A DNA stretch of 64,000 nucleotides, taken from contig JAHBUR010000012.1 of the NCBI GenBank assembly GCA_019637975.1, positions 1 to 64,000 on the forward strand, given 5' to 3'. Both the position numbers and the translations under genes were made by a program. Positions 9,642 through 57,105 of the stretch are shown here, one piece after another. Each line of letters starts with the position of its first letter. Position 1 is the first letter of the stretch. Below the pieces are notes generated by a model. That model did no database searches. It worked only from the letters and a program-made list of their open reading frames with translations, and was not told the DNA's origin. The DNA is from Bacteroidota bacterium (GTDB lineage: Bacteria > Bacteroidota > Ignavibacteria > UBA10030 > UBA6906).

Positions 9642-10643
9642 TCAACGACGAACCACCTCACCGACAACAACAGGCGCTTCCCCTTTTTTCTTCAGGAAGC
9701 GAATAACATTATCGGCTTGTGCATGCGGAATGACAATAATAAGTCCGATGCCAAGATTGAATGCTCGCCGCATATCTTCTTCAGGAACGCTGCCAACACG
9801 TTGTATCAAATTGAAGATGGCATTGCGGTCCCATGCACTCCACTCAATCCTAAGTCTCAGACTCTTCGGCACAATACGCATTGTGTTGCCGACTATTCCG
9901 CCGCCTGTAATGTGAGACAGGCCACGAACATCAAACTTCGCCACTACCGCTTGAACAGACTTCAGGTAAGAACGGTGTACGGCAAGCAATGCTTCGCCGA
10001 CAGCTGAGTTGAGTTCATCAACATGCTGATCGAGTCGGAAGACGGGGAGCAGCACAGAGCGGGCAAGCGAGTATCCGTTTGTGTGCAATCCGGTCGAACG
10101 GAGTCCAATAAGAACATCTCCCTTGCGAATTCTCTTTCCATCAACAATCTTCTTCTTCTCGACAACGCCGACAATCGTTCCGGCAAGATCGTATTCATTC
10201 TCGTTATAGAACCCGGGCATCTCCGCAGTTTCGCCGCCAATCAATGAGCAGCCGTTCTCGTTGCATGCTTTGACGAACCCATCAATAACATCCCTCGCCA
10301 CGTTGAGGTTGAGCTTTCCGCACGCAAAATAATCCATGAAAAAAAGGGGTCGCGCTCCACAGGCGAGAATATCATTCACGCAGTGGTTCACCAGATCCTG
10401 CCCGACTGTGTCGTGTTTGTTCATCATGTGGGCAACCATCAACTTCGTGCCGACACCATCGACGCTTGAGACAAGAACAGGCGACTTATAGCCCTTGAAC
10501 GTTCCGTCGAACAATGCTCCGAACGAACCGATCCCCCCGAGAACAGATTTGTTGAATGTCGAGCGGACGGCCTTTTTGATATGATGGACAAGCCGGTCGC
10601 CTCTCCCGATATCAACACCCGCTTCGGCATAGGTCTGCGACAA
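9642..10643 (-). CDS. purM: Phosphoribosylformylglycinamidine cyclo-ligase (AIR synthetase)
   Basis: Closes the imidazole ring in de novo purine synthesis (FGAM plus ATP to AIR). From a TTG at 10643, preceded by AAGGAAGGG, the protein has 333 residues and begins LSQTYAEAGVDIGRGDRLV, as expected for PurM. Further motifs are DGVGTKLMVAHMM, MDYFACGKLN, IGGETAEMPGFY, GLRSTGLHTNGYSLAR and HITGGGIVGN. An in-frame extension upstream to 10724 has no PurM character and is not counted. Other pur genes are not in the window. Confidence 0.93.
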   Translation of the reverse strand: MSQTYAEAGVDIGRGDRLVHHIKKAVRSTFNKSVLGGIGSFGALFDGTFKGYKSPVLVSSVDGVGTKLMVAHMMNKHDTVGQDLVNHCVNDILACGARPLFFMDYFACGKLNLNVARDVIDGFVKACNENGCSLIGGETAEMPGFYNENEYDLAGTIVGVVEKKKIVDGKRIRKGDVLIGLRSTGLHTNGYSLARSVLLPVFRLDQHVDELNSAVGEALLAVHRSYLKSVQAVVAKFDVRGLSHITGGGIVGNTMRIVPKSLRLRIEWSAWDRNAIFNLIQRVGSVPEEDMRRAFNLGIGLIIVIPHAQADNVIRFLKKKGEAPVVVGEVVRR

Positions 10644-10732
10644 CTTAATCCCTTCCTTTGAAGAAGAACTTGAATGGCAAAATGTTAGAGATTCTCGCAG
10701 ACAAAAGCAATGCAAATTTGTCACGATTTCCC

Positions 10733-10761
10733 TTGATAAAAGTTGTTTAGGTCGTTATATT
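10733..10761 (+). promoter_or_regulatory. Predicted sigma-70-type promoter for the FAH-family gene
   Basis: TTGATA (10733-10738) and TATATT (10756-10761) are separated by exactly 17 bp, about 30 bp upstream of the ATG at 10791. The match is good, but the assignment rests on consensus only. Confidence 0.45.
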
Positions 10762-10790
10762 CAGCCGTAGCGAGTTATCGTAAACCGTTG

Positions 10791-11447
10791 ATGGCTTTAG
10801 TCCAATTCCGTAATTCTAACAAGAAATTCCTAGTAGGTAAAATTGTCTGCCTCGGGCGCAACTATGCGGCGCATGCAAAGGAAATGCACGCCGAGGCGCC
10901 TGAAGTTCCTGTGCTTTTCTTGAAGCCCTCTACTGCCATCGTGCACGATGGCAGCAACGTTATGATTCCGCAGTTCTCATCGGAGCTTCACCACGAAGTC
11001 GAGATGGTTGTTGTGATCGGGAAAAGGGGAACGAGAATCTCAAAGCATGAAGCGATGGAACATGTGGGCGGTTATGCAGTCGCGTTGGATATGACGTTGC
11101 GGGATGTTCAATCAGAAGCGAAGAAGAAAGGGTTGCCATGGTCGGTTTCGAAAGGATTCGACACATCGGCGCCGTTGTCGCACGCAGTCGAGAAAGAGCA
11201 TGTCGCGAACCCGCACAATCTGGACATCACGCTGAAAGTGAACGGAGTTTTGCGGCAACATTCAAACACCCGGAACATGATTTTTTCAGTTGAGGAGATG
11301 ATCACGTATATCTCTTCGATTTTTACCCTTGAAGTTGGAGATTTGATTTTTACCGGTACACCCGAAGGCGTTGGGGGAGTTGTTTCGGGAGACCAACTCG
11401 AAGCTGAACTCGAGTCTGTTGGAACGTTGCGGGTCGGCATACAGTAA
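10791..11447 (+). CDS. Fumarylacetoacetate hydrolase family protein (FAHD1-like)
   Basis: 218 residues from the ATG at 10791, the normal length for the short FAHD1/YcgM branch. These are metal-dependent acylpyruvate hydrolases or oxaloacetate decarboxylases. Seen are VCLGRNYAAHAKEM, FLKPSTAIVHDG, the metal-binding HHEVEMVVVIGK, ALDMTLRDVQ, KGFDTSAPL and DLIFTGTPEGVGGV. Substrate cannot be set from sequence. It follows a predicted promoter at 10733-10761 and is followed 23 bp later by the ParA gene. Confidence 0.88.
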   Translation: MALVQFRNSNKKFLVGKIVCLGRNYAAHAKEMHAEAPEVPVLFLKPSTAIVHDGSNVMIPQFSSELHHEVEMVVVIGKRGTRISKHEAMEHVGGYAVALDMTLRDVQSEAKKKGLPWSVSKGFDTSAPLSHAVEKEHVANPHNLDITLKVNGVLRQHSNTRNMIFSVEEMITYISSIFTLEVGDLIFTGTPEGVGGVVSGDQLEAELESVGTLRVGIQ

Positions 11448-54559: not shown

Positions 54560-54634
54560 GGTCAATGGCGAAATGAACGACACAGTGTCACAATTTGTAC
54601 ACAATAGGAACAAAAGACGAGGAGGAAACACATT

Positions 54635-54682
54635 ATGAGGACTCAGTTATGCTATTTTCCGGGATGGAACCACAAGACATAA
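54635..54682 (+). CDS. 15-aa ORF overlapping the start of the membrane protein gene
   Basis: GGAGGAAACACATT stands before the ATG at 54635, a much better site than that of the main gene. The frame reads M-R-T-Q-L-C-Y-F-P-G and so on, ending TAA at 54680-54682. It could be a leader that controls entry to the gene at 54649 or just a chance start. No relatives known to me. Confidence 0.25.
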   Translation: MRTQLCYFPGWNHKT

Positions 54683-55467
54683 AGGATCTCTCCGTATACA
54701 GCTTCTCGGCCCTCATCCAGGCGGATGCGGCAATTTTTGGTTTGCTTGCTGTTTTTGTAGTCTACCAGCTGCAGGCCCTCGCGCACAACCAAATGCAATC
54801 GTACAACCTGATTGCGAAAACCACCGCCAGGCATGATTTCGAGCAGTTGCTTCTTCCCATCCTTGTTGAGACGAAACACTGGATTCTCATGAAGCATGAC
54901 GGCTCTCCCTACTATAGTCGTCTGCTGACTACGGCTGCGTTTACGGAATACTGGAGATCAAATGTCATCAATGCCTCCAAATCAACATTCATTCTGATCA
55001 TCCTGCATGTGACAATCACTTCAATCGGGCTCAACTATTCAATGGAGGTGAATCCTGTGTTAGGAATTGATGCCCGGTGGAGAGTCATCATTGGGTTGGC
55101 AACCTTTGTATTGCTGCTTGCCGTTATTTCGCGTGTGGGGTACAGCTTCCTCTCAAAGAATTCGTACGGCCGCGTTCCCAAAACGCCTTCAATTGATCTC
55201 GCTTCGATTACCCCGGAGCAGTTCAGATCGTGTTCACCGAAGAACGACAAATTCGGCCATCTCTATTCCATCAAACGGCACGACAAATCCAAGTTCATCG
55301 GATTCAAGCGTGGCAGCGGAAATACCGTAAGCGTGACTTGCCTTCTCAGGTCGAGGGACGGCAGATATGTCAGCGTGCGGTCGCAAGAAGATATGGACGA
55401 CAGCAACCTTCAGTCGTTCCTGCAAGGTATGAAATCCGATCCGGAGCGGTATTGGTCGAACACATGA
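54649..55467 (+). CDS. Membrane protein of unknown function
   Basis: 272 residues from the ATG at 54649 (GAGG upstream). Three hydrophobic segments are visible: about 20-40 (LIQADAAIFGLLAVFVVYQL), about 115-135 (STFILIILHVTITSIG) and about 150-170 (WRVIIGLATFVLLLAVI), followed by a basic cytosolic tail of about 100 residues (SIKRHDKSKFIGFKRG). I recognise no family. A stronger ribosome site (GGAGGA at 54621) serves an out-of-frame 15-codon ORF at 54635-54682 that overlaps the start. Confidence 0.6.
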   Translation: MLFSGMEPQDIKDLSVYSFSALIQADAAIFGLLAVFVVYQLQALAHNQMQSYNLIAKTTARHDFEQLLLPILVETKHWILMKHDGSPYYSRLLTTAAFTEYWRSNVINASKSTFILIILHVTITSIGLNYSMEVNPVLGIDARWRVIIGLATFVLLLAVISRVGYSFLSKNSYGRVPKTPSIDLASITPEQFRSCSPKNDKFGHLYSIKRHDKSKFIGFKRGSGNTVSVTCLLRSRDGRYVSVRSQEDMDDSNLQSFLQGMKSDPERYWSNT

Positions 55468-55495: not shown

Positions 55496-56221
55496 ATGAA
55501 CCTGACAAACCCGTTAATGACTTTACTCGCTCTACTCTTCACGCTCTTCGACGTGCATAGTTCGCCTGCTCAACACTCCGACAAAGCAGTACATGTTGTC
55601 GGCGCAATGAGAAACGTCATGTGGAAAGGCGAATTGTACGGCACAATCGATCTTGACACTATTTCAAACAAAAAGCATCTGTACGGACTCGGGCCGGTCG
55701 AGTACTTATCCGGCGAGCTTCTGGTTTTTGACGGAACGGCGTACAAATCGACAGTCCTGACGGACTCAACGATGGTGGTCAAGGAAACTTTCGCGGCAAA
55801 AGCTCCGTTCTTTGTCTATAGCAACATTGATTCGTGGAGGGAACACCCTCTTCCCGACAGCGTCCGAACGATGCAGCAACTGGAGGCATACCTGAATCTC
55901 ACGAACAAGCATGCGAGAAAGCCGTTTGCATTCAAATTGAGGGGCGAAGTCGAGTCAGCAACAATCCATGTTGTGAATCTGCCCAAAGGAGCGGTAGTTC
56001 GCTCACCGGATGATGCACATCAAGGACGAAAGAATTATCGCCTGATCAATCGACAATCTGACATTGTCGGCTTCTTTTCGCGGGAGCATCGGGCTGTGTT
56101 CACTCATCATGACTCATTTATTCACATGCATTTGCTTACATCAGATAAAACCATGATGGGCCACGTGGACGAGATGGTTTTCAAGACGGGCATGAAGCTG
56201 TTCTTGCCAACAGACAAATGA
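55496..56221 (+). CDS. Secreted acetolactate decarboxylase-like protein
   Basis: 241 residues with a signal peptide (LLALLFTLFDVHSSPAQ). The pattern YGLGPVEYLSGELLVFDG (E74) and the zinc-binding set H210, H212 (FIHMHLL) and H223 (MMGHVDEM) match the alpha-acetolactate decarboxylase family (BudA/AlsD). The 2 and 11 residue spacing equals that of the Bacillus brevis enzyme (His194, 196, 207). The known enzyme makes acetoin from acetolactate in the cytosol; a signal peptide is unusual, and the protein ends soon after the third His. Other activities of the fold are possible. The barrel protein starts 35 bp later. Confidence 0.75.
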   Translation: MNLTNPLMTLLALLFTLFDVHSSPAQHSDKAVHVVGAMRNVMWKGELYGTIDLDTISNKKHLYGLGPVEYLSGELLVFDGTAYKSTVLTDSTMVVKETFAAKAPFFVYSNIDSWREHPLPDSVRTMQQLEAYLNLTNKHARKPFAFKLRGEVESATIHVVNLPKGAVVRSPDDAHQGRKNYRLINRQSDIVGFFSREHRAVFTHHDSFIHMHLLTSDKTMMGHVDEMVFKTGMKLFLPTDK

Positions 56222-56256
56222 AGAAACACAGAACTGCGCGTAATGGAGAACAACTT

Positions 56257-57105
56257 ATGAAACGACTTCTCATCCCCATCATGTCCATCCTCGTCATGTT
56301 CACGCAGGCTCTCTACTCCCAATGCTCGGACGCCGGCGTTTGCTCCATCGGTTCACAGCATGAGCAGCTCCGTCACAGTTTCAGCGCGGGTTACGTGTTC
56401 GGCAAGAGCAGCAAGTCGGATGATCTGACGTTCCATTCGTTTCAAGTTGAAGGAAGTATCCGGGTTCTTGAAGACTCGCGACTTTCCATCGTTTTGCCCT
56501 GGTCGAGCGCAAGCGGGCCGTTGGGAAAAGCGAGCGGCATCGGCGACCTGACGATTCTTTGGAGTCAGGTCGTACTAAAGAATGATGCCCATCAGCTCAG
56601 CGTTCAGATTGGCGGCAAGTTCGCGACAGGAAACGCAGATCTCGGCAACCTTCCGCAGGCCTATCAACCGGGATTGGGAACAAACGATCTGTTGCTCGGT
56701 ATTTCGTTCGACACAGAGCCTTGGTTGTTCGCTTTGGGATATCAACTCTCACGAGGGAGAAGCGACAATGCAGCCACACAGTTGAAGCGAGGGGACGATG
56801 TGCTCGCGCGGGTTGGATACAAGACTGGGGCCGACGATTTCACGTTCGGGTTGGAGTTGTTGGCCATAAAGCGGCTTCAGGAGGCAAGCATTCTGAGTCC
56901 TTCCGCACAAATCATCAGTTCGTTCATGTCTATTCCGGAAAGCGACCGGCTTCAGGTCAATGTCCTTGGCACCGCTTCCATGAAGCTATCGGAAAGCTAC
57001 AGCCTGCGAGTCCTTGGAGCGGTACCGTTGCGCAGTCGGCCCGTCAACGTCGATGGATTGACCCGGAGTATTACTCTTTCCCTTGGGTTGCAGTACGCTA
57101 TATAG
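56257..57105 (+). CDS. Outer membrane beta-barrel protein with paired Cys at the N-terminus
   Basis: 282 residues from the ATG at 56257, where GGAG precedes by a good distance. Signal peptide, then QCSDAGVCSIGS with two close Cys, then about ten amphipathic strands (FSAGYVFGKSSKSDD, GIGDLTILWSQVVLKND, HQLSVQIGGKFATGNADL, ITLSLGLQYAI) ending in an aromatic-plus-hydrophobic terminal strand. The C-S-D-A-G-x-C start followed by a barrel is, as I recall, a recurring unnamed family in Bacteroidota. It follows the decarboxylase-like gene and is probably made with it. Confidence 0.7.
   Translation: MKRLLIPIMSILVMFTQALYSQCSDAGVCSIGSQHEQLRHSFSAGYVFGKSSKSDDLTFHSFQVEGSIRVLEDSRLSIVLPWSSASGPLGKASGIGDLTILWSQVVLKNDAHQLSVQIGGKFATGNADLGNLPQAYQPGLGTNDLLLGISFDTEPWLFALGYQLSRGRSDNAATQLKRGDDVLARVGYKTGADDFTFGLELLAIKRLQEASILSPSAQIISSFMSIPESDRLQVNVLGTASMKLSESYSLRVLGAVPLRSRPVNVDGLTRSITLSLGLQYAI

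Follow-up and report, generated by a model that had tools for sequence, protein, structure and literature searches.

An exported acetolactate-decarboxylase-like protein of a Bacteroidota bacterium with a possible role in periplasmic copper handling

A 64,000-nucleotide stretch of a Bacteroidota contig (JAHBUR010000012.1; hereafter the window) encodes a protein that resembles acetolactate decarboxylase (ALDC) and appears to be exported. The next gene specifies an outer-membrane-type protein. What does such an ALDC-like protein do outside the cytosol, and are the two neighbors partners? A sequence-only reading had proposed that, acetolactate being a cytosolic metabolite, a periplasmic version points to a new substrate or a non-catabolic role, perhaps linked to the outer-membrane barrel.

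Family, fold, and export of the window protein

The ALDC-like gene occupies 55496..56221 on the forward strand and codes for 241 residues. Its product was compared with the PF03306 profile and passed the cut-off of 25 bits with 61.9 bits (E 6.9e-17). This match is significant and thus not due to chance. The same ORF scored 49.9 bits against TIGR01252 and stayed below the acetolactate decarboxylase equivalog cut-off of 180.65 bits. The PDB entries closest to it in sequence were ALDCs. An AlphaFold2 model, built from 48 aligned sequences, reached a mean pLDDT of 88.6. In a Foldseek search with this model, ALDC structures ranked first (4bt2, E 1e-13), followed by human PTD012 and PPC/PCC proteins. 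Alignment with VIA-align 2 yielded Z scores of 22.6-24.4 over about 200 residues for ALDC structures and of 14.5 for PTD012. The suggested overlay on ALDC crystal structures therefore gave a good match (Z ~24), and the window protein is predicted to have the ALDC fold. The alignment of the model with 4bt2 stopped at residue 224, implying that the C-terminal tail with Glu253 of the Brevibacillus brevis enzyme is absent.

The signal peptide claimed from the sequence was likewise found. The N-terminus MNLTNPLMTLLALLFTLFDVHSSPAQ (55496..55573, forward strand) is signal-peptide-like with a hydrophobic stretch at residues ~6-20 in the hydropathy plot, and relatives carry signal peptides or, in many cases, a lipobox-type cysteine at the N-terminal signal position. 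The argument that a periplasmic location speaks for a new role proved weak: the B. brevis enzyme is an exoenzyme too, and several canonical ALDCs of Bacteroidota have signal- or lipoprotein-like N-termini.

The GC content of the ALDC-like gene equals that of its flanks, and composition thus gave no signal of a recent foreign insertion. Phage carriage was discarded as well, since the viral contigs searched contained no ALDC-like relatives. Among plasmids, one distant match with 23% identity was found in Acinetobacter.

Active site and the His-type clade

The metal triad of the window protein comprises His210, His212, and His223 (HxH-x10-H), which aligned with His194, His196, and His207 of 4bt2, so that the spacing of 2 and 11 read from the bare sequence agrees with B. 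brevis ALDC. The triad lies within 56087..56170 together with His198, Thr203-His204-His205, and Asp225 of a GHxD motif. Glu74 (55715..55717) is the counterpart of the metal ligand Glu65 of the B. brevis enzyme, and His158 (55967..55969) replaces Arg145; all of these positions are on the forward strand. For Arg145, Glu65, and Glu253 we assume the roles in ALDC that stem from work on the B. brevis protein.

Judged by these alignment columns and by the tree, the window protein is assigned to a separate clade, here termed His-type. The Glu74 column held glutamate in 98 of 101 His-type rows and in all 24 other rows. Histidine occupied the Arg145 column in 101/101 His-type rows and arginine in 19 of the 24 comparison proteins, which include one Acinetobacter plasmid protein that is itself His-type in appearance. 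Within the clade, His198 (99/101), Thr203 (101/101), His204 (99/101), and Asp225 (96/101) were conserved. The Thr203-His204-His205 segment (FTHH) in front of HxH is a two-residue insertion relative to ALDC and is common to the clade. The last metal-binding histidine was followed by 16-24 residues in nearly all His-type rows versus ~47 in most canonical ALDCs, whose penultimate glutamate fits Glu253. As only 18 residues follow His223 in the window protein and Glu253 stands 46 residues after His207 in B. brevis ALDC, this position is lacking. The pocket residues were also retained in relatives from the family of genome G143. Across 395 genomes of the phylum, PF03306 scores were bimodal, at least 192 or at most 76 bits with the exception of one short fragment. 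The tree branch between canonical ALDCs and the His-type received a support of 100/100, though branches were long. One genome (G349) carries a canonical as well as a His-type gene.

Compared with acetolactate decarboxylase (PF03306, TIGR01252; 4bt2 of B. brevis and 5xne of Bacillus subtilis), the window protein thus shares the fold, the triad, and the Glu65 counterpart but differs in an identity of ~20%, in histidine for Arg145, in the FTHH insertion and GHxD, in the missing Glu253 tail, and in the linkage of its relatives to metal efflux genes (see below). The shared features, together with the existence of secreted ALDCs such as that of B. brevis, would suit a genuine acetolactate decarboxylase that is exported by chance and acts on leaked acetolactate. 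We consider this improbable in view of the low equivalog score, the exchange of Arg145 for histidine in all His-type proteins, the loss of Glu253, and the metal efflux linkage, and no acetolactate-pathway family was among the neighbors listed. From its sequence features, a His-type protein is probably not an ordinary ALDC. The sequence-only reading is likely to be right in proposing a function outside acetolactate catabolism, because histidine stands at the Arg145 position, Glu253 is missing, the equivalog threshold is not reached, and the neighborhoods are non-catabolic; the link to the barrel that went with this proposal was not supported.

Three further observations concern the distribution of the domain. 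The Acinetobacter plasmid protein mentioned above (L156 3902-4651, NZ_CP024012.1) is annotated as acetolactate decarboxylase, has a short tail and a histidine in place of Arg145, and thus represents a His-type-like form in Gammaproteobacteria; its gene adjoins that for an ammonium transporter. In genome G245 (L040, 895-2190), a His-type ALDC-like domain is fused to an FmdE domain (PF02663), and a second ALDC-like gene stands in tandem. In L033 and L095, the His-type domain ends a 507-residue protein, the N-terminal ~270 residues of which look like a GDSL/SASA-type esterase by eye.

The downstream barrel gene

The neighboring outer-membrane-type protein (56257..57105, forward strand) has 282 residues; 56257 is a better start than 56218. 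Its mature form begins with QCSDAGVCS, and the C-S-D-A-G-x-C start pointed out previously was invariant in 17 aligned homologs. Weak matches of some homologs to outer-membrane barrel families give only indirect support to the assignment of the CSDAGVC protein as a barrel. A single-sequence fold prediction was uninformative (pLDDT 33).

A decarboxylase functionally paired with this barrel would explain why the two genes adjoin in the window and also did so in the common ancestor with the sister genome G001. The pairing did not recur in other genomes, however. In a set of 60 relatives, with the window genome counted among them, nine further genomes had a barrel gene and no ALDC-like match, and genomes with barrel homologs but no ALDC-like gene include G001, G002, G013, G019, G025, G039, G046, and G055. 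Conversely, four other genomes had an ALDC-like gene and no barrel match, one of these genes (G006) being a fragment at a contig end. In the 395 genomes of the phylum, the ALDC family was matched in 31 and the barrel in 36. No further neighboring pair was detected among them; the few genomes with both genes carry them on separate contigs or at a distance of 380 kb. At the other barrel loci tested, neither copper nor RiPP genes were seen alongside.

The corresponding junction of G001 was analyzed by blastn and translation. The window segment 54562..56108 (forward strand), between pepT and the barrel gene, is not common to the two genomes. G001 retained the order pepT-barrel-OPT and has two other ORFs where the window has the ALDC-like gene. 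Directly before its barrel gene, a degraded ALDC-like 3' end was present, NSFMHMHLLTS followed by VNEVVFKTGMMTLFLPPGT in different frames. From this remnant we deduced that the genes adjoined in the ancestor of both species and that one was lost while the other was kept. In the other genomes sampled, the two genes were never neighbors; the adjacency is local and was lost in G001. The lack of co-localization in other genomes ruled out the barrel as a conserved partner, and the neighborhood search that had been suggested for the decarboxylase-barrel pair thereby turned against the proposed link. We consider a functional pairing highly improbable.

A distant homolog in G048 (L029, 6904-10555; CSDAGFC, 25-27% identity) lies between genes of the MbnB/TglH/ChrH family and DUF2063, also near DoxX and a small exported ORF, and this arrangement resembles a copper-RiPP (bufferin-type) cluster. 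Clusters of this type may likewise relate to copper, and the G048 homolog (27% identity) counts in favor of a pairing.

Further features of the locus were noted. A 290-residue ORF directly upstream of the ALDC-like gene (window 54595-55467) has hydrophobic stretches and no family match, and it is missing from the corresponding slot in G001. Instead of orf290 and the ALDC-like gene of the window, that slot (L017, ~10240-11320) contains small ORFs (orf153, DUF2200) set apart by three copies of a ~40-bp palindromic repeat (GTCGTCACGGT ... ACCGTGACGAC; two copies are imperfect). The rest of G001 has few perfect copies of the repeat, and three further genomes that were tested have none.

Metal genes beside His-type genes and the proposed role

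Relatives of the window gene are located in copper efflux operons, which is not true of the window copy. In L196, the order is cusA-cusC-[His-type gene]-copA-cusB-HMA with a 4-base ATGA overlap to copA. In L202, it is cusA-[His-type gene]-cusC-DUF2911-...-cusB with 4-base ATGA overlaps to both neighbors, and in L189, the His-type gene stands between YceI and a copper ATPase with a gap of ~10 bp. NCBIfam models identified CusA/CzcA in L196 and L202 (785 and 797 bits, cut-off 701). The ATPases of L196 (582 bits) and L189 (603 bits) exceeded the cut-off of 397 for copper-translocating enzymes. When the direct neighbors were inspected in 80 named loci, CPx-type ATPases were found less than 500 bp away in five, all close relatives of one another, and none further out. 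A His-type gene was present in 74 of 397 genomes of G143's family. Homologs of CusA, CusC, CusB, CopA, or HMA lay within 1.5 kb in 26 of the best 30 loci from this family, which share ancestry and are not independent events, just as the group II loci of the clade share descent.

The heavy-metal-binding domain HMBD (PF19335) of CopA and CusB is fused N-terminally to three His-type proteins (L113, L114, L124) and is absent from the window protein. HMBD genes were found no more than 5 kb from the His-type gene in 4 of 21 genomes, where 0.075 would be expected by random placement (P ~9e-7); three genomes remained when the fusion case was left out (P 5.7e-5). No canonical ALDC gene was near HMBD in 23 genomes despite the larger number of HMBD genes there (Fisher 0.044 versus 4/21).

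In the majority of group I loci, among them those of the window and of the Pontibacter branch, metal genes were absent from the immediate neighborhood, and a Pfam tally of direct neighbors revealed no single dominant partner in this group. The HMBD and CusA genes of the window genome are on another contig than the ALDC-like gene. On the tree, metal-linked members occurred in group II as well as among the deepest rows of group I (L136, L132, L124, L113/L114). These positions suggest an ancestral metal link and later stand-alone life in the Pontibacter/window branch as the simplest reading.

Because many relatives sit inside copper-pumping operons, a role in copper handling is suggested. We favor the view, and hold it to be reasonably probable, that the window protein is an exported metalloprotein of the ALDC superfamily with a rebuilt pocket that serves periplasmic copper (or related heavy-metal) homeostasis. 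It is probably a previously unrecognized part of copper handling and not a partner of its outer-membrane neighbor. The old triad would still hold a metal, most likely copper or zinc, and His158 and the FTHH segment may contribute ligands or provide a path for proton transfer. The protein might bind or buffer copper, or use a metal to convert a small carboxylate, and would thereby help efflux by CopA and CusABC. In group I, the branch of the window, the gene would mostly live outside the operon and alone, with the adjacency of the CSDAG barrel being incidental. More tentatively, the ALDC fold may have given rise, in Bacteroidota and related phyla, to a new class of periplasmic cuproproteins that have a His-rich site formed around the former zinc triad and cooperate with CusABC and CopA. 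Such a class would carry the annotation acetolactate decarboxylase.

Copper damages the Fe-S dehydratase IlvD, and acetolactate could rise as a result. IlvD damage is cytosolic, however, and the active-site changes also speak against this idea.

The linkage to metal genes shows co-function, not chemistry, and the conserved Ser195, Trp114, and Thr203 are as compatible with an enzyme as with a metal carrier. Alternatively, the protein could be an exported decarboxylase or hydrolase of the ALDC superfamily that depends on a metal and acts on a new small-carboxylate substrate; copper operons would then include it only because this metabolite accumulates or chelates metal under copper stress. The retained triad and Glu74 and the invariant polar pocket residues are in line with such an enzyme. 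A precedent is human PTD012/C11orf54 (PF08925), which was shown in 2025 to be 3-dehydro-L-gulonate decarboxylase (PMC12435205). It has a related fold (Z 14.5) and a three-His zinc site but only ~11% identity; PTD012 is eukaryotic and intracellular, and the window protein has no PF08925 match. As the ALDC superfamily changes substrate in this way, an enzyme is a serious rival. We nevertheless rate it as rather unlikely, since no substrate-pathway gene recurred in the neighborhoods and the gained histidines and HMBD fusions suit metal handling.

With respect to the favored copper role, CusF, CueO, PcoC/PcoE, and other periplasmic copper proteins of the Cus/Cop/Pco systems are similar in that they stand beside CusABC/CopA, are exported, and are rich in metal ligands. 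Their folds differ from that of the ALDC-like protein. The headings of a gamma-proteobacterial survey of 14 periplasmic copper components list no ALDC-like protein (PMC3548706). Open-licence literature of limited coverage on ALDC with copper, on zinc structures, and on Bacteroidetes did not report a copper link. If the proposed role is correct, a large family named after a fermentation enzyme would be an unrecognized component of copper resistance in Bacteroidota, where copper proteins of the periplasm have received less attention than in proteobacteria. Besides PTD012, it would also be a further documented case in which the ALDC fold was repurposed, and it would provide a directly testable gene in Cus operons of the Flavobacteriaceae type.

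In two further loci (L198 and L199 of genomes G366 and G312), a large RND pump of the AcrB type and a conserved 103-residue protein are encoded in the vicinity of the His-type gene.
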